From Pyrinomonadaceae bacterium (GTDB taxonomy: Bacteria > Acidobacteriota > Blastocatellia > Pyrinomonadales > Pyrinomonadaceae): a DNA stretch of 64,000 nt. Location: the NCBI GenBank assembly GCA_014380365.1, contig JACMJZ010000024.1, positions 62,001 through 126,000 on the forward strand, in the 5' to 3' direction. Position 1 is the stretch's first letter. Every line of letters starts with the position of its first letter. The notes under the pieces are model-generated. The model did no database searches and had not been told where the DNA came from. It worked only from the letters and a program-made list of their open reading frames with translations. Shown here one piece after another: positions 4,584 to 49,810 of the stretch. The position numbers and the translations under genes are program-made.

Positions 4584-5540
4584 ATGGCACAACGACGACG
4601 ACTAGGCAGAAAACTCTTCAAGTCACTGTTACCAATCCTGCTTGTCCTGGCCGTGGCCTTCGTGTTTACGCTGGGCTGGATTGTTTATGGGATTACACGT
4701 CCGCAGCGCCAAGCCTATTTGGTCACCCCGCAATCATTTTCAAACATTAGCGGCGGCGCTCTCAAAGTAACTGACGAAACGTGGACGAACCGCGACGGAA
4801 CTACAGCTCGTGGATGGTTGCTGCGAGGCGGAGAAGGAGCGCCGGCGGTCGTCTTCTTACACCGCTATGGAGGTGACCGCTCCTGGCTCTTCAATCTGGG
4901 CATCAAACTGAACGAGACGACAAACTTGACGATTCTGTGGCCCGATCTGCGAGGTCACGGGATGGATCCGCCTGTTAAGTCGACCTCGTTTGGCAACAGT
5001 GAGGAAAGTGATTTGCTGGCCGCTCTGGATTTCCTCCGAACTCTGAAGAGCGCTAACCAAAACAAACTGGTCGCGGATCGCTTTGGAGTTTATGGCGTCG
5101 AGCTCGGCGCCTATGTCGCGCTGCGGGCTGCTGGTCATGATCCGGCGGTTCAGGTGTTGGCGCTTGATTCGGTCCCGCGGAGTGCAGATGAGTTGGTAAA
5201 CGCGGCGGTAAGTGCTGACATCGGCGTCAGCAAACAAACTCTTCTAGCTTTGGCTCGCGTCGCGACGCGCGCATATTTTCTTGGCCAGTATGCGAACAAG
5301 ACATCCTGCGAACTCGCCCCAGCTCTCAAAACGCAGCGTGTGCTCCTGCTCGCCGGCGCCGACAATAGCGCTCTGCGCGAGTCTACTTTGTCGCTGCAAT
5401 CATGTTTTCCAATTAGCTCCAACCTGGAAACTAAAACCGACTTGCCCTTGACTGGTTTTACCCTGGCCTCAGCTACGGGCGAACAAGGCGAAGCTTATGA
5501 TCGCCCCGTGATAGATTTCTTCGCCATGAACCTTCGTTGA
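4584..5540 (+). CDS. Membrane-anchored alpha/beta hydrolase
   Basis: 318-residue protein with one N-terminal membrane helix (about residues 10-33, LLPILLVLAVAFVFTLGWIV) after a basic MAQRRRLGRK start, so probably anchored with the catalytic domain outside. The fold shows VVFLHRYGGDRSW (oxyanion-loop region), WPDLRGHGMD and then RFGVYGVELGAYVALRAA. The usual nucleophile elbow G-x-S-x-G reads GVELG here, so the serine is replaced and the protein may be non-catalytic or use another residue. ATG 4584 is preferred to the in-frame GTG 4551, which lies inside a REP copy. The stop codon is followed directly by a family D repeat. Confidence 0.7.
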   Translation: MAQRRRLGRKLFKSLLPILLVLAVAFVFTLGWIVYGITRPQRQAYLVTPQSFSNISGGALKVTDETWTNRDGTTARGWLLRGGEGAPAVVFLHRYGGDRSWLFNLGIKLNETTNLTILWPDLRGHGMDPPVKSTSFGNSEESDLLAALDFLRTLKSANQNKLVADRFGVYGVELGAYVALRAAGHDPAVQVLALDSVPRSADELVNAAVSADIGVSKQTLLALARVATRAYFLGQYANKTSCELAPALKTQRVLLLAGADNSALRESTLSLQSCFPISSNLETKTDLPLTGFTLASATGEQGEAYDRPVIDFFAMNLR

Positions 5541-5568
5541 GGTAGGACAGGCATTCCTGCCTGTCCTT
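5541..5568. repeat. Palindromic element, family D
   Basis: GGTAGGACAGGCATTCCTGC followed by CTGTCC. The 24 bp at 5542-5565 recur exactly at 7102-7125 inside the neighbouring glycosyltransferase gene. A diverged inverted copy is at 5784-5809. The element starts at the base after the hydrolase stop codon. Confidence 0.8.
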
Positions 5569-5638
5569 CGTAACCTAACTTCACGACACTGTTGCTCCAT
5601 CGAGGCCAGCAGACGGAAGTGTCTGTCCGATGCGGACG

Positions 5639-5743
5639 TCATTTTCCATTTGTCATTTTCCATTTCTCATTTGCCATCGCCGGCACTCTCAGCTTGGAGA
5701 ACAATGAAAAATGAGAACTGAGAAATGATTAATGGAAAATCTG
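5639..5743. repeat. Inverted heptamer arrays (7-bp period)
   Basis: 5639-5680 reads as consecutive 7-mers TCATTTT, CCATTTG, TCATTTT, CCATTTC, TCATTTG, CCATCGC. 5702-5743 reads CAATGAA, AAATGAG, AACTGAG, AAATGAT, TAATGGA, AAATCTG, the rough reverse complement. The pair would form a long imperfect hairpin between two convergent genes. Confidence 0.75.
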
Positions 5744-11366: not shown

Positions 11367-12203
11367 TCAATCTACATCAAGCCAATCCCTGGCAAAAAAT
11401 AGCACACTAAAAATCAGAAACGAAAAAAGCGCCAGGACAATCGCGATTGCGTTTGCTGCTTCAATCTGGCCCTCGTTGAATTTGGCGAAGATGTAAAGCG
11501 GTGCTGTCTGCGTTCGGCCAGCCAGATTGCCGGAAACCAGAATCGTCGAACCAAACTCACCTACCGCGCGGGCGAAGGTTAACAACGCACCCGAGACGAT
11601 CGCGCCTCGCAACGACGGTAGCGTGACATGCCAGAAGGTCTGCACGCGCGTCGCGCCTATCGTCGCCGAGGCCTCTTCCAGCGATCGGCTCATCGTATCG
11701 AATACAGGTTTAATAACTCCGAAAGCGAGCGGAAAGGTGACAAAGATGTTGGCGAGGATGATGGCCCCCGCCGTAAACATCGTTTGAATTCCATGGGGCG
11801 CGAGGAAGCGGCCCAGAGTGCCGTACGGCCCCCATAAAAGCAGGAGCGCAAAGCCTGCGACCGCGGTCGGGATTGCGGTCGGCAGCGAGATGGTGACGAT
11901 CAATGCGTTGCGTCCCCAGAAGTTGTAACGAGAAAGCACGTAAGCGGCAAAGAGTCCAAAGATGACGTTGAACAGAGTGGCCCAAAAACTTGTGACCATC
12001 GAAAGCTTGAGCGCGAACACAGCCTCTGGCGCGGTGAGCGACTCCATGAAACTCGTCAGCCCCTGACTGGTGCCGAACAGAAAGATCGACGCCAGCGGCA
12101 GGAACACCAACGGCAACATCATGAGCACGAGCATGCCGATGCTCAAAGGCCGCGCGACATCGAAGCCGCGCACGTGACGCATTGTGGGAATCATGCTGCT
12201 CAT
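11367..12203 (-). CDS. cysW: Sulfate-type ABC transporter permease, the only one in the operon
   Basis: Inner-membrane permease of about 278 aa with six predicted helices. The EAA loop is LEEASATIGATRVQTFWHVTLPSLRGAIVSG, with VGEFGSTILVSGN downstream, typical of CysT/CysW/ModB. Canonical sulfate importers encode two permeases (CysT and CysW); only one is present here, so it may form a homodimer as ModB does, or the partner lies elsewhere. Start is uncertain: ATG 12203 is used, but 12233 or 12194 are possible because the upstream gap is filled by a family C repeat. Symbol is by family likeness; cysT would be equally fair. Confidence 0.8.
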   Translation of the reverse strand: MSSMIPTMRHVRGFDVARPLSIGMLVLMMLPLVFLPLASIFLFGTSQGLTSFMESLTAPEAVFALKLSMVTSFWATLFNVIFGLFAAYVLSRYNFWGRNALIVTISLPTAIPTAVAGFALLLLWGPYGTLGRFLAPHGIQTMFTAGAIILANIFVTFPLAFGVIKPVFDTMSRSLEEASATIGATRVQTFWHVTLPSLRGAIVSGALLTFARAVGEFGSTILVSGNLAGRTQTAPLYIFAKFNEGQIEAANAIAIVLALFSFLIFSVLFFARDWLDVD

Positions 12204-12240
12204 AAGTTCACGTGGCGTGGGCATCCTGCCCATGATCCGT

Positions 12241-26375: not shown

Positions 26376-28805
26376 CTATTTGGAAGAGCAGGTGTTGTCG
26401 GTAACGTTGCGGTCGGTAATCGTAAACGTTGCCTTCGGCGTAGTTGTCTGCACTGTCGCGTCTCCCGTTTTGGTGCAGGTATCAAGGCGACTAAAAACTC
26501 GACGGTCGGGCGCGTTGTGCGTCAGCACAATGACGCAACCCTTTCTTGCCATCGTGCCTGTCCCTGTTAGGCTGGTGCCACCCGCAGGCGCCGGGGGTGT
26601 GCCGCCGGGCGTGATGGTTCCACCTGATGGCGGCTGCCCAACCGGCTTGGGTGATGAGCCAGGGTTCGTGAAGATGTAGTCGCCGGTAAATGTATTCCAC
26701 TGGATTCCGGAGTGGCGATTCGAGTCGTCAGTTATGCAGACGTCAAACCGGTCAACAATAACGGTGGCTACTACGGTGAATGCGCCAGCCTGCTGGCCAG
26801 TGATTGCCCTGGTAGTCGTGTAAATTCCGTCTCGATTCACTTCGGTCGGAGTAATCCGCAGGTTTTGAAAGTTGCCGCCGTCCATGTTGATCACGCCGGT
26901 AGCGTCGAGCTGTAGCGGCACAGGTTCCGTGATCCCTTCCAGTCCGTTTACCTCGACCTTCAGCACGGTCTGTTCACCTCTCAGCAAGTTAGTCTTGGGC
27001 GCACTCAGATTCACACCGACGTTGCGATAGTTTCCGGTGGTTCTCGTGTTCCCTTCGGTCAGGTGAAGCTTGATCGGGCCGATTACATTGGCGGGCGCGG
27101 CGAAGACAGATTTGCGCGGTGACTCGGCAATTACGTCGAACCGGCCCATAGTGTCACGGTCTTCTCCATCGCTAACCCTGATGTCCGTATTCGCGGCGTT
27201 GCCATCGAACGGACCGGTTACGACGATGGGCCGCCCGGTCTGACCGACGGGCGGGAAGCTAAACGGCGGGTTCGTTATTTTCGGATCAGGTGTGATGATC
27301 GCGCCTGACGGGTGCGTCGGCTGCGTTATTTTCGGATCAGGCGTGATGATCGCGCCTGACGGGTGCGTGGGCTGCGTTATCTTCGGATCGGGCGTGATGA
27401 TCGCGCCTGACGGGTGCGTCGGCTGGGTTATTTTCGGATCGGGCGTGATGATCGCGCCCGAAGGATGCGTCGGCTGGGTTATTTTCGGATCGGGCGTGAT
27501 GATCGCGCCCGAAGGATGCGTCGGCTGCGTTATTTTCGGATCGGGCGTGATGATCGCGCCCGAAGGATGCGTCGGCTGCGTTATCTTCGGATCGGGCGTG
27601 ATGATCGCACCTGACGGTGTCATGCCTTCCCCAGCTTTGCGAATTTCGTCGAACATTTGACCGATCAGAATGTTAGTTCGCGCAAGGGTTTGGCCATCAC
27701 GGTCCATCACAGCAATCGGTACAGTGTTGTCTTTCCCTGTAATTGTCGTTGTATAGATCCAGAAAGTCTGTTGGATCACAGCCTCACGTTCTTTTTCGGG
27801 GCTCCCCGCAAACGGCTCCACACGCTTGCCATCGATTTCGATAGCCAAACTAAGGAGCACATTCTGATTCTTTGCGCGCTCCTCCGGCGTCTCTCCTTTC
27901 GGCTCGGTGATCACCGTTCCCGAAATCGTATCGCCTGCCCTGATGTCGTCCGGCAGTCTCACTATGACTCGGCCCTGAACAACCTTGAAGGTAACGGTAT
28001 TAAGGCCGTTAGCGGTTTTCGACTCGGCTGACTGGCCGTCACCCGGCGGGATGAAGTTACCTTTTTTGGGGGGCTCTTCTGTTTGGCGCGCGTCCTCCGC
28101 CAGTTTTATCAGTTTAAGCCGCTCTGCCAGGTCATCGAGCCGTTTCTTCCGCGGATTGGTTTCTGAGCCGCTTCCGGTCCGGGTGGCCTCATGGAGCAAT
28201 CGCCTGGCATCCCGAATCGCCTTTGCCGCGGCCCGACGTGCTGCCCGCGCTCGCTTCCGCTTGAGACGCGCCTTCTTCTCCAGGTCATTCTTCTTGTCCG
28301 CGTCGTCGGCCTTCTTGTCGGCTGCGTCCGCCTCTCTCTCTTTCTTGGCCGCATCTTCCTCGGCCTTCTTTGCAGCCTCAGCGGCGTCATCCGCCTCCTT
28401 CTTTTCATCAGCTGCTTTCTTGTTTCTCTCCTCGTTACTACCCCCAGCTTCTTTAGCATCCTTCGCGGCATCTTCAGCCTCAAGCTGCTCTTCCTGGGCT
28501 TTGTCCTGGGCCTCGTCTGCCTTCTCCGCGGCCTCGGCCGCAGCTTTTGCGGCATCGTCGGCTGCCTTGTCCTCCGGCGTTTGCTCCTTACCAGCCTTCT
28601 TTCCGGCCTCATCAGCAGCTTTTTGTGCCTCGGCAGCTTCCTTCGCAGCTTGCTCGGCCTGGGCCGTATCTGCCTCGGCTTTCTTGATGGCTTTTTCAGC
28701 CTCAGTGTCAGCGTGAACGAGAACCGGCAGGAAGCTGAACGCAGCGATGAACAACATCGCGGCACATGTAGCAGCCAGTAGACAGAATCTGATTGACGAT
28801 TTCAT
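26376..28805 (-). CDS. Secreted Ala/Lys/Glu coiled-coil protein with seven 17-aa repeats
   Basis: 809-residue exported protein. A signal peptide (about 1-32) is followed by a highly charged Ala/Glu/Lys/Asp stretch (residues 33-190), strongly predicted coiled coil, then a basic segment (KARLKRKRARAARRAAAKAI). Residues about 270-390 look globular (TFKVVQGRVIVRLPDDIRAG; a possible beta sandwich). Seven copies of a 17-residue unit SGAIITPDPKITQPTHP follow (about 394-511), then a C-terminal region of Ig-like or adhesin-like beta character ending in a Cys-containing tail. I recognise no family. The layout suggests a cell-surface or extracellular stalk protein. A 20-bp palindrome at 28881-28900 may control it. 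Confidence 0.8.
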   Translation of the reverse strand: MKSSIRFCLLAATCAAMLFIAAFSFLPVLVHADTEAEKAIKKAEADTAQAEQAAKEAAEAQKAADEAGKKAGKEQTPEDKAADDAAKAAAEAAEKADEAQDKAQEEQLEAEDAAKDAKEAGGSNEERNKKAADEKKEADDAAEAAKKAEEDAAKKEREADAADKKADDADKKNDLEKKARLKRKRARAARRAAAKAIRDARRLLHEATRTGSGSETNPRKKRLDDLAERLKLIKLAEDARQTEEPPKKGNFIPPGDGQSAESKTANGLNTVTFKVVQGRVIVRLPDDIRAGDTISGTVITEPKGETPEERAKNQNVLLSLAIEIDGKRVEPFAGSPEKEREAVIQQTFWIYTTTITGKDNTVPIAVMDRDGQTLARTNILIGQMFDEIRKAGEGMTPSGAIITPDPKITQPTHPSGAIITPDPKITQPTHPSGAIITPDPKITQPTHPSGAIITPDPKITQPTHPSGAIITPDPKITQPTHPSGAIITPDPKITQPTHPSGAIITPDPKITNPPFSFPPVGQTGRPIVVTGPFDGNAANTDIRVSDGEDRDTMGRFDVIAESPRKSVFAAPANVIGPIKLHLTEGNTRTTGNYRNVGVNLSAPKTNLLRGEQTVLKVEVNGLEGITEPVPLQLDATGVINMDGGNFQNLRITPTEVNRDGIYTTTRAITGQQAGAFTVVATVIVDRFDVCITDDSNRHSGIQWNTFTGDYIFTNPGSSPKPVGQPPSGGTITPGGTPPAPAGGTSLTGTGTMARKGCVIVLTHNAPDRRVFSRLDTCTKTGDATVQTTTPKATFTITDRNVTDNTCSSK
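27271..27625. repeat. Seven tandem 51-bp repeats in coding sequence
   Basis: The unit (GGATCAGGCGTGATGATCGC within it on the plus strand) recurs every 51 bp, exactly 17 codons. Copies fall into two subtypes, CCTGACGGGTG at one end and CCCGAAGGATG in the middle, which differ only by synonymous changes. That indicates recent expansion plus selection on the peptide. Confidence 0.92.
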
Positions 28806-43661: not shown

Positions 43662-44390
43662 GCTGGGAGCGCAGGCATCCTGCCTGCAATGAGCGCGAAG
43701 CGCGAACAGTTTTTTCTTCACAGATGCGCGACCAGAAACATCCTTACGGACCCGACGGCTGGCACAGCCGCGGTTACCTGCCGCATTTCGACGGCGGAGA
43801 AATTCCCCAATTCATCACCTTCCGCCTGGCAGACTCCATGCCGCAACAATTGTTGCAACGGTGGCGCGCTGAGCTGAGCAACGAACAGAACATTGACATT
43901 GATGCCGCTTTACGTAGGCGCATAGAGAATTATCTGGATCAAGGATATGGCGAGTGCCACCTAAGTAACTCGGGCATCGATGAGTTGTTGCAGAATGCAT
44001 TCCTATTCTTCGACGGCCATCGCTACCGGCTGACAGCATGGGTCATCATGCCGAACCACACCCACCTCTTGATGACTCCCTGCGCGGGCTATGAGTTATC
44101 TAGCGTCTTGCACTCGCTCAAGTCTTTTACAGCTAACGAAGCAAATAAGCTCTTATGTCGTAAAGGCCAGTTCTGGCAGCCGGAATCGTTCGATCGATGG
44201 ATTCGTGACGCCGATCATTTTGAAAAGGTGATTAGTTATATTGAAAATAACCCGGTGAAAGCACGGTTGTGTGCTAAAGCGGAAGACTGGCCGTTTAGCA
44301 GTGCATGGTTTAGGAAGCGAGACAAGAAGTAAACACCAGAAGAAGTTCGCGCTTCGCGCTCATTGCAGGCAGGATGCCTGCGCTCCCAGC
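43662..44390. mobile_element. RAYT unit: transposase gene flanked by perfect 46-bp inverted REPs
   Basis: Left repeat 43662-43707 and right repeat 44345-44390 are exact reverse complements over 46 bp. Each contains the palindrome GCAGGCATCCTGCCTGC and an outer GCGCGAAGCGCG hairpin. The gene at 43724-44332 lies between them, so the whole is a REP-RAYT unit rather than a classical insertion sequence. Confidence 0.88.
43724..44332 (+). CDS. REP-associated tyrosine transposase (TnpA_REP, Y1/IS200-like)
   Basis: 202-residue single-domain HUH nuclease that cuts and rejoins single-stranded REP DNA. The HUH motif is VIMPNHTHLLM, and the catalytic tyrosine is expected in the helix VISYIENNPVKARLC. 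The N terminus GGEIPQFITFRLADSMP, the FFDGHRYRLTAW segment and QSFDRWIRD-like ESFDRWIRD are TnpA_REP hallmarks. No zinc or IS200 dimer partner gene is present. It starts 16 bp after the left REP. Confidence 0.93.
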   Translation: MRDQKHPYGPDGWHSRGYLPHFDGGEIPQFITFRLADSMPQQLLQRWRAELSNEQNIDIDAALRRRIENYLDQGYGECHLSNSGIDELLQNAFLFFDGHRYRLTAWVIMPNHTHLLMTPCAGYELSSVLHSLKSFTANEANKLLCRKGQFWQPESFDRWIRDADHFEKVISYIENNPVKARLCAKAEDWPFSSAWFRKRDKK

Positions 44391-45076: not shown

Positions 45077-46084
45077 CTATCTTCCCAACTCTCGCGGACG
45101 CGGCGGAGTCTCTCCGCTCGGCTCACCCGTTTGTGACAGCACTTCCTTCAGCGCTCCTATGCTGGACAACATCGCGGAGGTTTCCACCGGCATGAAAATA
45201 ACCTTTGAGTTGTTCGTCCGGGTCATGTCCCGCAGGCTATCGATGTAGCGGGTGGTAATCAGATATTGGCCGGGGTCGCCACCGGGGATTGCCTGAGCAA
45301 TGCGGTTGATTGCTTCTGATTCAGCTTCCGCATTCCGGAGCCTGGCCTGGGCCGCGCCCTCAGCTTGCAGAATCGCCGACTGCTTCTCGCCTTCGGCCCG
45401 AGTCACCGCTGCTTGTTTCTCGCCTTCGGCGCGCGTTATCGCCGCCTGTCGATCACCTTCTGCCTGGATCACGAGAGCGCGCCGGTTTCTCTCTGAAGTC
45501 ATCTGTTTTTCCATCGTGATGCGCACGTCTTCCGGAGGATTAATATTCTTAACGTCAACGCGCGTCACTTTCACTCCCCACTTGTCCGTCGCCTCGTCCA
45601 AAATAAGCCGCAACTTGGAATTGATCGCGTCGCGATTGGAAAGCGTATGGTCGAGATCCATCTCCCCCATCACCGACCGCATTCCGGTTATCGTCAGTTG
45701 AATGATGCCGCCCACGAGATCGTTCATCTCGTAGACCGCTTTAACCGGATCAGTGATCAGCCAATAAACGACTGAGTCAACATGAATCGTCACATTGTCC
45801 CGCGTGATAACTGGCTGCGGCGGCAGGTCAATATACTGTTCGCGCAAGTCAATTGACGTGAGGCCGGGTCGAGTGTTGGTCCAATAAACCGCCCGCGGCC
45901 TGTCGAGGAACGGAATCAGAATGTTCAGTCCCCCGCTGGCGATCTTGTCAAACCGGCCGAGACGCTCGACGAGCATCACCGTCGCCTGGGGAACAATCCT
46001 GATCGTTTTTACAGCGATAACTAACAAGATGATCGCCAGAAAGCCAAAAAAGAGAAACACAAGGACTGAAGATACGGGATCCAT
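45077..46084 (-). CDS. Stomatin/QmcA-like SPFH membrane protein
   Basis: 335-residue protein with one N-terminal membrane helix, an SPFH domain (VLVERLGRFDKIASGGLNILIPFLDR... and VKAVYEMNDL...TITGMRSVMGEMDLDHTLSNRD) and a C-terminal coiled coil with AITRAEGEKQAAVTRAEGEKQ repeats. It is the type that forms large membrane rings. No NfeD gene is adjacent. ATG 46084 is preferred. SPFH rings organise membrane proteases in E. coli (HflK/C, QmcA); the local role is unknown. Confidence 0.9.
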   Translation of the reverse strand: MDPVSSVLVFLFFGFLAIILLVIAVKTIRIVPQATVMLVERLGRFDKIASGGLNILIPFLDRPRAVYWTNTRPGLTSIDLREQYIDLPPQPVITRDNVTIHVDSVVYWLITDPVKAVYEMNDLVGGIIQLTITGMRSVMGEMDLDHTLSNRDAINSKLRLILDEATDKWGVKVTRVDVKNINPPEDVRITMEKQMTSERNRRALVIQAEGDRQAAITRAEGEKQAAVTRAEGEKQSAILQAEGAAQARLRNAEAESEAINRIAQAIPGGDPGQYLITTRYIDSLRDMTRTNNSKVIFMPVETSAMLSSIGALKEVLSQTGEPSGETPPRPRELGR

Positions 46085-46407
46085 AACATTAACTCCTCGA
46101 AGACTTTTGGGTCTACGCACAAGATCGGCAAGAACTTGGCTGCGAAACTATATCGGATCGACTCTGTTTTGAGTAGGGCACATGGCAATGCTCGATTTGC
46201 TGCAACCAGGATAATGCATATTCAAGTTAACCGGACCGATACAACAATTCCGTGCCCCAGCGATTCCTGGTCCAAGCTGGGACCACGTAGACGGAGGAAA
46301 ATTGTGACAACGCTTCTAGTTACCTATGTCTTTCAGCCTCCACAATGCTAGAATTCCAAACGTTTCGTAACTCTCACCGCTTCCCTGCCACCACGAAGGA
46401 GAGGAAG
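46085..46407. other. 323-bp divergent gap, no gene found
   Basis: Neither strand shows a credible ORF, hairpin terminator or repeat. A Shine-Dalgarno sequence (AAGGAGAGG) at 46394-46402 belongs to the next gene. It presumably holds both divergent promoters, but I cannot pick them with confidence. Confidence 0.5.
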
Positions 46408-48048
46408 ATGACAGCCGACGCTAGCCACAAAAATACTCAGCCCAAAACGATGACCGTCGAGCAGTTCGGAAATTACATTGCGCAGGATGTTTGGGATAAG
46501 GGGGAGTTTCTTGCTTGGCCTCCCGATATCTTTGCCTTGGTGGCATCCTTGTTGCTCAAGTCTGGCGCCTACTGTTATGCGATCTCAGGTTGGAAGCGAA
46601 CACCCTCGCTTGTTAGCTGGACAAAGCGGATGGAACGAATCGGGAAAAAGTGGCGCGCCGGTGGAAAACTTGCACCTCCCCAAGTGCGCCAATGGCATCG
46701 CACGCTCACTACGGGAAAAAACAGGCAAGTACCCGTTTCTAGAATTCGGTATGAGCCAAAGTTGTGCGAGGCCCTGCTTGAACTATGCGCCGCTGCGGAT
46801 GAAGCGTGCCAAGGCGTGGGCTTTGGAATGTCCCGGGAGGGTGATCTTTTCTTAGAGAAAGCATCGACACGTCTTTTCGTGACCGGAGAGACTCTCGAGG
46901 CGTCAACTTTATGCAGCCAGCAGATCGATCACTCTGCTGTTAGAGTATTGCCTAAATTACACACGCCCCAAAGCGGGATAACCATTCGTTCCTTAACTCA
47001 CCATCTAGCGCTTTGTCCAGCCGGTGATGTCAAGGCCAAATGGGCGGAGTATCCTTGCCCGGGACGACATTACGTCAACCTTCTGATCGCGCCTTGGCCT
47101 CTAACCGCAAGTCCCGCGCACTTTCTCGCCGTGGAGCCAACGAAGGCAGAGTTGCTCGACATGCCTAAGGAGTTCGGTTTCTTTGAATACAGTCCACCGC
47201 TGGATACCGACACACTTCCAAGACTGAGGAGGTTGCTCAAAGAGGCTCACAAGACTGTTAACAAAATCCATGGCGTTATTTTTCCGGAATTGGCGCTCAC
47301 CGAAGATCAGTATGGCAGGATCAGCAAATATCTGATGAAGCAGGACATCCTCCTCATTTGCGGCGTGCGAAAACCACCGACTTCAAGTGGGAAGGCCGGC
47401 AAAAACTATCTGCAATTCGACATCCCTTACATCTACCCCACGCGGCACCAACAAAGCAAGCACCATCGCTGGCGCTTGAACAAACGACAAATCGTGCAGT
47501 ATGGCCTTGGCAGTTGCTTGGACGTGACCTGGAATTGGTGGGAGCATATCTCGATTGGCAATCGCACTCTTTATTTTGTCGTTCTGGACGACTGGCTGAC
47601 AGTGTGTCCCCTTATCTGCGAAGACTTGGCGCGCCAGGATCCGGTAGGAGAAATTGTACGGGCGGTCGGGCCAAACCTGGTAATCGCGCTCTTGATGGAC
47701 GGTCCGCAGTTGAATTCCCGCTGGCCCGCCCGTTATGCAACCGTCCTGGCTGACGACCCAGGCTCCTCAGTGTTGACTTTGACGAGCGTCGGCATGAGTG
47801 AACTCAGCAGGCCACCATCAATACAAGGCCAATCTCGTGCGGTGGCGCTCTGGAAAGACGCCAAAGGCGAGGCGGTTTCCATTACCCTGCCCGAAAGGAG
47901 CACGGGAATCATTCTAAGTCTTTCGCGCAACCTGGAAAAGGAGTGGTCAGCCGACGGCCGTGACGACGGCGGCACCACAGGCTATCCGGTCTTGTCGGGA
48001 ATTCACTTTGTAGGCTCTACCCCGAGCCAGCTGAAAGTCTTGCGTTGA
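46408..48048 (+). CDS. Nitrilase-fold (carbon-nitrogen hydrolase) protein with unknown N-terminal domain
   Basis: 546 residues from ATG 46408 (strong AAGGAGAGG). The C-terminal half (about 215-540) is a nitrilase-superfamily domain with a full catalytic triad: Glu294 in GVIFPELAL, Lys351 in SKHHRWRLNKRQ and Cys404 in CPLICEDLARQDP. RYATVLADDPGSSVLTLTS follows. The first 200 residues (WDKGEFLAWPPDIFALVASL...SGAYCYAIS) match no family I know. The KHHRW-type loop and this long form recall nitrilase domains fused to reverse transcriptases in the DRT1 (UG1) defence group, but no RT is present; this link is from memory and tentative. The gene stands apart from its neighbours in codon and base feel. 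No signal peptide, so cytoplasmic. Confidence 0.8.
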   Translation: MTADASHKNTQPKTMTVEQFGNYIAQDVWDKGEFLAWPPDIFALVASLLLKSGAYCYAISGWKRTPSLVSWTKRMERIGKKWRAGGKLAPPQVRQWHRTLTTGKNRQVPVSRIRYEPKLCEALLELCAAADEACQGVGFGMSREGDLFLEKASTRLFVTGETLEASTLCSQQIDHSAVRVLPKLHTPQSGITIRSLTHHLALCPAGDVKAKWAEYPCPGRHYVNLLIAPWPLTASPAHFLAVEPTKAELLDMPKEFGFFEYSPPLDTDTLPRLRRLLKEAHKTVNKIHGVIFPELALTEDQYGRISKYLMKQDILLICGVRKPPTSSGKAGKNYLQFDIPYIYPTRHQQSKHHRWRLNKRQIVQYGLGSCLDVTWNWWEHISIGNRTLYFVVLDDWLTVCPLICEDLARQDPVGEIVRAVGPNLVIALLMDGPQLNSRWPARYATVLADDPGSSVLTLTSVGMSELSRPPSIQGQSRAVALWKDAKGEAVSITLPERSTGIILSLSRNLEKEWSADGRDDGGTTGYPVLSGIHFVGSTPSQLKVLR

Positions 48049-48150
48049 CAGCAGCATGACGGAATGGTACAAATTGGGTCGCGAGAGCGAACCGCCAGAT
48101 TGCTTATGCCCATAAAACACCGTAGGTCATTGCCCATTAGGAACCGCCCC

Positions 48151-48354
48151 ATGAAAACACTTACTTTTGCTGATGCGTATGGTCTTGGGCTGATTGCCAA
48201 AAACCCTAAGGGGTACTCTGAGATTCATCAGTATCTCAGCCCAGCAGCTAAGAAGATCGCAGAAGCGATCGTCACACCCAATGGCCGTTCTTCCAAGGAT
48301 GCCAGATCTGCTGCCAAGGAATTACAGAAACGAATCCATAGCGGCTCGCGGTAG
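48151..48354 (+). CDS. Small protein downstream of the nitrilase-fold gene
   Basis: 67 residues from ATG 48151 with AGGAAC upstream; mostly helical and basic (pattern GYSEIHQYLSPAAKKIAEAI). No known family. Same strand, 102 nt after the nitrilase-fold gene, so likely co-transcribed. A longer reading from 48064 exists but its first 29 codons look unlike protein. It could be a partner or antitoxin-like regulator; both are guesses. Confidence 0.55.
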   Translation: MKTLTFADAYGLGLIAKNPKGYSEIHQYLSPAAKKIAEAIVTPNGRSSKDARSAAKELQKRIHSGSR

Positions 48355-48421
48355 TTGCTCGGCCCCAAGTCAACTCCCGCACGCCAGCTAACGCAGACTT
48401 CGATCAGCCCTCCAAGCCATT

Positions 48422-49810
48422 TCAGGCGTCTTGCCAACCTCCAAGAAACTCTTCCAAAATCAGAGCGGCGGCGAGTACTGTCTCTTCATCGTTCGGTCGG
48501 CCGATGATCTGTACGCCGACAGGCAAACCTTCACCAGTCCGACCTGCCGGGATAACTGCGACGGGCAGATCGAAAACATTAAATGTCTGCGAATAACTGA
48601 AAGCTCGAAACGTGCTTAGCGATTGCCCCGCGACCGTCACTTTGTGCGCGTCATGTGGGAAAGCCGGCGTGGCGCCTACCGGAGCGAGTAACAATGGCGT
48701 GGTTTCCATCCACTTAACCAGTTCCCCTCGCAAACGATCTCGTTCCAGCCAGGAGTGTATGTAATCGTCCAGGCTGGGAACTGGAGCGTCGTCGGCAGTC
48801 GCCAATCTCCAACGCACAAATGCGCCTCCCTTCTCCTCATGACCCGCGTAAACCTCTCGAAGTTGAACCACTGAAGCCCTCGAGAAAAGCTTAAGCCACA
48901 ACTCATGCCCGCGCTCAATTCCCGGCGGCCGGATTTCTTCTACGTCCAGCCCAGCATCCGCCAGCGCGCGAGCCGCAGTTTCCACCGCCCGGCGAGTTTC
49001 CGCAGTCACGGGTGAAACGTCGTCATCCGTGTACCAGGCGATGCGTCGACCGCCCAATGATTCTCGCAATACTTCCATCCCCACTTCGGCCAGAGGGGGC
49101 GTTCCCGACAGGACACTGTAAATGAGTCGCAGATCGGAAACACTGCGCGCCATCGGGCCAATCACCGAACCCAGCGAATAAGGGCCACGCGAAGGTGGAA
49201 ATTGGCCTTCACCCGGCACCCGGCCAACAGTTGGCTTTAATCCCGCGATGCCGCAGAAGTGCGCAGGAATTCGAATTGACCCGGCCAGGTCGGTGCCAAT
49301 TCCGGCGGCCGACATACACGTTGTAATCGCCGCCGCTTCGCCGCCACTGGATCCTCCGGGGGTAAGTAGCGGGTTATACGGATTATTAGTACGACCGAAG
49401 ACCGGATTGTCGGCCGTGTAGTCCATAGCCATCTCGGCCGTATTTGTTTTTCCCAGAATGATTGCGCCGGCAGCTTTGAGGCGCGCTACGGCAGGAGCGT
49501 CAAACTCAGGAACGTAGTCGGCGCGCATTGCCGAGCCGCTGGTCGACCGCAGTCCTGCAGTTTCAATTGTGTCCTTAATCGTCACCGGCACGCCATGAAG
49601 CGGGCCAAGCGCGTCGCCGCGCATCACCGCCGCTTCCGCTGCCTGGGCCTGGTCGATGACGTCAGAGGCAATCGTCACAACCGCGTTGAGCTTTGGATTT
49701 AGTTCTTCAACGCGATGCAGATACGCTTCAACAACCTGAACAGGCGAAACTTCCCGATTATGAATCAGAAGCGCAAGTGCGGTTGCTGTTTGGGAGGTTA
49801 TCTCATTCAT
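48422..49810 (-). CDS. Amidase-signature family hydrolase
   Basis: 462-residue cytoplasmic amidase of the GatA/AtzF superfamily. The Ser-Ser-Lys triad is complete: Lys79 in VTIKDT, Ser154 in TPGGSSGGEAA and the nucleophile Ser178 in GTDLAGSIRIPA. GKTNTAEMAMDY and PVGVQIIGRPNDE are family motifs. GatB or GatC genes are absent, so it is more likely a free amidase than part of the tRNA amidotransferase. ATG 49810 is chosen because the 20-codon extension to 49870 lies in a REP-like sequence. Confidence 0.88.
   Translation of the reverse strand: MNEITSQTATALALLIHNREVSPVQVVEAYLHRVEELNPKLNAVVTIASDVIDQAQAAEAAVMRGDALGPLHGVPVTIKDTIETAGLRSTSGSAMRADYVPEFDAPAVARLKAAGAIILGKTNTAEMAMDYTADNPVFGRTNNPYNPLLTPGGSSGGEAAAITTCMSAAGIGTDLAGSIRIPAHFCGIAGLKPTVGRVPGEGQFPPSRGPYSLGSVIGPMARSVSDLRLIYSVLSGTPPLAEVGMEVLRESLGGRRIAWYTDDDVSPVTAETRRAVETAARALADAGLDVEEIRPPGIERGHELWLKLFSRASVVQLREVYAGHEEKGGAFVRWRLATADDAPVPSLDDYIHSWLERDRLRGELVKWMETTPLLLAPVGATPAFPHDAHKVTVAGQSLSTFRAFSYSQTFNVFDLPVAVIPAGRTGEGLPVGVQIIGRPNDEETVLAAALILEEFLGGWQDA

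Follow-up and report, generated by a model that had tools for sequence, protein, structure and literature searches.

What a nitrilase-fold protein with an additional N-terminal domain and a small neighbouring gene does for its host is the question raised by this locus, which lies in the window, the whole 64,000-nucleotide stretch of DNA analysed here, from a soil bacterium of the Pyrinomonadaceae. On balance, we lean slightly towards reading it as a mobile two-gene effector-plus-regulator conflict unit, most likely anti-phage and acting by amide hydrolysis. The features involved, with their evidence, are the following.

46408..48048, plus strand: large nitrilase-fold gene, 546 aa (open reading frame, alignments, AlphaFold2 model, fold matches)
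46408..47055, plus strand: part coding for the N-terminal helical domain, residues 1–216 (separate model, fold searches)
47059..48003, plus strand: part coding for the nitrilase domain, residues 218–532 (VIA Z 16–18 to many solved nitrilases/amidases)
48064..48354, plus strand: small basic companion gene (open frame, profile match, positional test, fused form in relatives L030/L034)
46099..48448, no strand: segment without counterpart in congeners, comprising the unit and its spacers (gap comparison, nucleotide alignment)

The large reading frame starts at ATG 46408, with GGAGAGG shortly before it; an in-frame ATG upstream at 46345 would give an alternative product of 567 aa. The full-length protein is modelled by AlphaFold2 with a pLDDT of 91.6 and a pTM of 0.92. 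Residues 218–532 superpose on many nitrilases with VIA Z scores of about 16–18 and rmsd values of 3.4–5.5 over 220–250 residues, and reach Foldseek E values down to 2e-8 against solved nitrilases and amidases. According to the model, the C-terminal half is a nitrilase fold and a predicted amidohydrolase. Its active site comprises the complete triad E294, K351 and C404 together with a second glutamate, E379, all conserved in relatives that were collected from plasmids, whole genomes and GTDB species genomes and then aligned. Specifically, the triad is invariant in all 16 members of set A1, whose collection made no use of the Cys motif, which means that conservation there is no artefact of the search; it is kept in 76–77 of the 77 members of set A2, which was fetched by the pattern ICEDLARx[DE], so that conservation of the Cys motif is partly built in. 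The triad columns coincide with those of metabolic and DRT1 nitrilases in the sequence alignment. The complete triad proposed in an earlier, sequence-only reading of this DNA is thereby confirmed by the alignments and by the nitrilase fold of the model.

The preceding domain is mainly helical and, modelled separately as residues 1–216, reaches a pLDDT of 89.7. The sequence-only reading could not place it, and neither could the searches: Foldseek returns a best E value of 1.4 and VIA a best Z score of 3.2, with no recognisable fold match, and a PDB sequence search with the domain found nothing. This is absence of evidence and does not prove a new fold. Alignments show that the extra domain of about 216 residues is conserved throughout the family. 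Neither the large protein nor the small reading frame matches Pfam or NCBIfam. The nitrilase models of the two libraries match no relative of the large protein at E 0.01, although one of the 16 relatives reaches E 0.21, and Pfam CN_hydrolase matches none of the 77 family members.

The unit is flanked by a Band_7/stomatin gene and an amidase-signature gene, both assigned by Pfam and both on the opposite strand. The gap between these two genes measures 33–470 bp in nine congeners versus 2340 bp here, and nucleotide alignment to eight of the nine congener sites leaves approximately 46099–48448 without a counterpart. Because the site is empty in congeners and this segment is unmatched, the roughly 2-kb unit is most simply read as an insertion into an otherwise conserved spot. 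No repeats were found flanking it, and an Rfam scan of 45800–48700 returned no family. Elsewhere in the window, 43724–44332 holds a REP-associated transposase reading frame (Y1/RAYT-like, judged by eye) bracketed by a perfect 46-nt inverted repeat (43662–43707 and 44345–44390), the whole of 43662–44390 resembling an intact mobile or REP-type unit. Further away, 26376–28805 on the minus strand encodes an 809-aa secreted-looking protein with a run of near-identical 17-residue repeats, HPSGAIITPDPKITQPT.

Relatives of the large protein are absent from all 96 genomes compared from the host's genus, family and class, and six of 396 genomes drawn from the phylum have one, the window's own genome included. 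Across GTDB species genomes the family occupies at least 151 loci, most of them in lineages distant from that of the host, and 14 plasmid records carry relatives; the hosts include Acidobacteria, proteobacteria, Planctomycetota, Verrucomicrobia, Bacteroidota, Deinococcus and others. No relative was found in 50,697 GenBank phage records. In IMG/VR, a scan with the alignment recovered five relatives and a scan with the single protein none. One IMG/VR contig (L222) shows the order repressor, integrase, nitrilase, companion, and in this contig the unit may sit just beyond the end of the prophage; a second (L223) places nitrilase and companion between terminase/integrase and replication-initiation genes, and in a third (L224) the family gene has tail genes and a phage DNA methyltransferase as neighbours. 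Judged from gene order, the unit in these contigs lies inside a prophage or next to one. Collectively, the sequence comparisons indicate horizontal insertion and a patchy spread over many phyla, plasmids and prophages.

The second gene extends for 96 aa from its first ATG at 48064, or for 67 aa from ATG 48151, and BLAST with the 67-aa form finds no homologue. Inspection of relatives reveals small reading frames on the 3′ side, within a few dozen nucleotides of the nitrilase stop codon. A positional test over 83 loci set the small reading frames that follow the nitrilase gene against those on its 5′ side and at ten offsets further away, yielding 36 homologous locus pairs at the 3′ end (involving 31 of the 83 loci), none at the 5′ end and 0–1 at each control offset. 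A leave-one-out profile built from the relatives' small 3′ frames recovers the window companion at E 0.09 among 13,630 reading frames; eleven other small frames score above it, of which only that of L023, on the opposite strand and 10 nt from the nitrilase gene, lies outside the co-directional 3′ set. Taken alone, this profile match is weak. In two relatives, L030 and L034, the nitrilase protein ends in a companion-like segment (E 5e-4 and 6e-3); these are the only two of 93 proteins below E 0.01, and the best E value in 20 shuffled control sets was 0.03. The companion thus appears, by profile comparison, to be fused to the nitrilase C-terminus in these two proteins, perhaps through a single fusion event, since the two tails resemble each other. 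The recurrence of small frames at the nitrilase 3′ end, the recovery of the window copy by profile and the existence of a fused form together support a two-gene unit, as the sequence-only reading had described it.

Companion sequences evolve fast and, as far as they can be grouped, form several families, some co-directional with the nitrilase gene and some convergent to it. The window's clade has one family, Burkholderiales another, and Vibrio and prophages share a third, while alphaproteobacteria hold at least two more of the convergent type. On Agrobacterium plasmids (L011, L015), convergent, strongly acidic proteins of 48–56 aa, annotated as hypothetical, lie 3–4 nt past the nitrilase stop and share the motif ML(K/E)Y..(A/T)(F/Y)L..N. 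In two Bradyrhizobium relatives, a nucleoside 2-deoxyribosyltransferase-family gene takes the place of the small companion, starting 13–16 nt after the nitrilase gene (L097, about 11732–12226; L101, about 5244–5732). Long family members of 780–970 aa were considered as fusions, and this was rejected, as their C-terminal extension gives no profile match to any of the companion families; these long forms seem to lack a companion. A tandem pair of them (919 and 957 aa) with a helical-looking C-terminal extension occupies 7011–13280 of L026, in one deltaproteobacterial MAG.

Such an architecture invites comparison with a toxin-antitoxin addiction module, in which the nitrilase would be the toxin and the small protein the antitoxin, plasmids or islands would be stabilised and defence would be secondary. 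The two-gene size, the 3′ position of the companion and carriage on plasmids and prophages fit this arrangement; however, the companion is convergent and not co-transcribed in several alphaproteobacteria, and the long forms appear to manage without one, their extension being unrelated to any companion family. An addiction module is quite unlikely. The convergent orientation of some companions, being unusual for a classical antitoxin operon, also counts against the conflict-unit reading that we prefer, as do the low number of IMG/VR relatives, the lack of any in the GenBank phage records, the weak profile match of the window companion, the ordinary character of most neighbouring genes and the position of the window copy outside a defence island.

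Gene neighbourhoods bear on whether the enzyme serves metabolism or conflict. Neighbour clustering over 95 loci reveals no conserved partner of normal size and no recurrent metabolic partner, in line with the sequence-only description of a gene without metabolic partners, and a catabolic-operon reading was rejected on this basis. Defence genes do occur nearby: the 140 proteins encoded within 3 kb of relatives include, by PADLOC, a pair of CBASS cyclases, a pair of type I methyltransferases and a pair of mads_2 matches. Genes 5.5–9.5 kb away give matches to Septu PtuA/PtuB, AriA (PARIS-type), capP and methyltransferases, so that this far set, meant as a control, also holds defence genes. Most neighbours are ordinary genes by Pfam, and the window copy itself does not lie within a defence island. 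On a Methylorubrum plasmid, the family gene sits between a cyclase/E2/TIR cluster and SIR2/VPA1262 genes. Separately, at 2703–5720 of L161, a gene lies beside a VWA/PP2C/His-Xaa-Ser cluster and possibly represents another immune nitrilase. Gene context favours defence or phage-exclusion cargo and falls short of proof. Nowhere in the surveyed neighbourhoods did relatives keep always to one catabolic operon and never to the vicinity of defence genes, and the role in conflict or defence suggested from the sequence holds up as plausible, given the patchy spread, the insertion at a conserved site, the prophage carriage and some defence neighbours.

These same neighbourhoods bear on a rival reading, a mobile metabolic or detoxifying amidase/nitrilase. 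Its substrate would be, for example, a signalling molecule, a naturally occurring nitrile or the amide of an antibiotic, and the small protein would help as a chaperone or assembly subunit. The fold matches are ordinary amidases and nitrilases, and many plasmid and chromosomal neighbours are metabolic, for example nif genes in L014 and transporters in L013 and L016. Metabolic nitrilase-superfamily amidases (for example Nit2, aliphatic amidase, formamidase, the glutaminase domain of NAD synthetase) share the fold and the Glu-Lys-Glu-Cys residues, but identities in structural alignments are 10–18%, and the window family differs in escaping Pfam CN_hydrolase, in carrying an extra N-terminal domain and a companion, and in having no catabolic operon. 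The missing metabolic partner across the 95 loci, the conserved 216-residue extra domain and the long separate branch that the family occupies away from metabolic nitrilases all argue against a metabolic assignment, as do prophage carriage and a fast-changing companion, which are atypical for catabolic enzymes. We consider such a role unlikely.

The conflict-unit reading finds its nearest described counterparts among reverse transcriptase (RT)-linked nitrilases. In DRT1, a class 3 UG/Abi RT with a C-terminal nitrilase, abortive antiphage activity is ascribed to the nitrilase domain as proposed effector, which DNA adducts and filament formation switch on and whose substrate is unknown (PMC13275509). 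The likeness consists in a nitrilase-fold Glu-Lys-Cys enzyme within a mobile system. The window protein differs in having no reverse transcriptase, a different helical N-terminal domain in its place and a separate small companion: no RT domain was detected by Pfam in it or in its 77 relatives, and by the models its 546 aa leave room for nothing beyond the nitrilase domain and the 216-residue helical domain. The UG5 RT-nitrilase with a transmembrane partner is likewise a validated system (PMC9122126); in its P4-satellite form with 1TM it resembles the window unit in combining a nitrilase domain with a small second gene in a mobile setting, whereas its RT is fused and its partner has been presented as an effector in the membrane, with a transmembrane segment (PMC9122126), the window partner being a small basic protein. 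A literature search on nitrilases in antiphage, conflict, toxin-antitoxin and defence-island contexts returned only RT-linked cases or unrelated work.

Whether the family descends from these systems was addressed by motif, tree and profile. The sequence-only reading had seen in the KHHRW loop a reminder of DRT1 nitrilases, but a specific link is not supported: DRT1 carries GK(Q/R)H-type and C(F/Y)DATD motifs, whereas the window family carries KHHRW and CEDLAR. In a tree of 45 nitrilase domains, the family, DRT1 and metabolic sets separate, with the family on its own starred long branch, a result of moderate weight given the quick method and the branch length. An initial profile comparison, with the congeners' nitrilases standing for the metabolic enzymes, appeared to favour DRT1; once the metabolic set was broadened, DRT1 and metabolic nitrilases obtained the same profile–profile score. 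Kinship with DRT1 was rejected on the equal scores and the separation in the tree.

A related possibility is that the family represents a degenerate or standalone branch of DRT1/UG5 RT-nitrilases that lost its reverse transcriptase. The only PADLOC nitrilase models to touch the family are indeed of the RT-nitrilase kind, RT_UG5-nitrilase and RTasNitrilase each weakly matching 15 of the 77 members and Drt1a four (best E 1e-7), and the window protein itself matches the UG5 RT-nitrilase model at E 1e-5 over only about 60 residues. Set beside the lack of any Pfam CN_hydrolase match in the 77 members, these weak matches are the sole hint towards DRT. Because the library was built for defence proteins, these matches discriminate poorly and cannot separate RT-nitrilases from ordinary nitrilases. 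Together with the long branch, the equal profile scores and the differing motifs, this makes descent by RT loss very improbable. Phylogenetic placement points to a deep branch of its own, which may work like the DRT1 effector, membership in DRT1 being unsupported.

For the conflict unit favoured here, the effector would be the large protein, acting as an amidohydrolase of the nitrilase superfamily. The helical domain at its N-terminus would sense a trigger or keep the enzyme inactive or oligomeric, and its small fast-evolving neighbour would serve as a putative regulator in the form of an antitoxin, adaptor or lid. Infection, the putative phage trigger, would release the Glu-Lys-Cys site, and the freed enzyme would hydrolyse, deplete or modify an essential amide- or nitrile-bearing molecule, its putative substrate; NAD or another amide as the cleaved target is a guess. 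Through this putative toxicity, growth would stop before the phage matures. A more specific proposal, which we hold tentatively and judge to fall just short of evenly balanced, is an undescribed anti-phage family in which a standalone nitrilase effector is combined with a sensor domain of a new type and with a hypervariable regulator that is swapped among unrelated small-protein families and can be fused, with killing by hydrolysis of a metabolite amide.

Hardly any nitrilases are known to act as immune effectors; the case under study is DRT1, whose substrate is still open (PMC13275509). Being compact and free of an RT, a nitrilase unit whose small partner can be separated from it would allow a direct test of the target and the restraint of an immune nitrilase, and the family would add proteins unseen by Pfam, NCBIfam and, weak cross-matches aside, PADLOC. 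Its scatter over many phyla, plasmids and prophages makes the pair a candidate new antiviral or toxin-type system built around a previously unclassified nitrilase-type enzyme.
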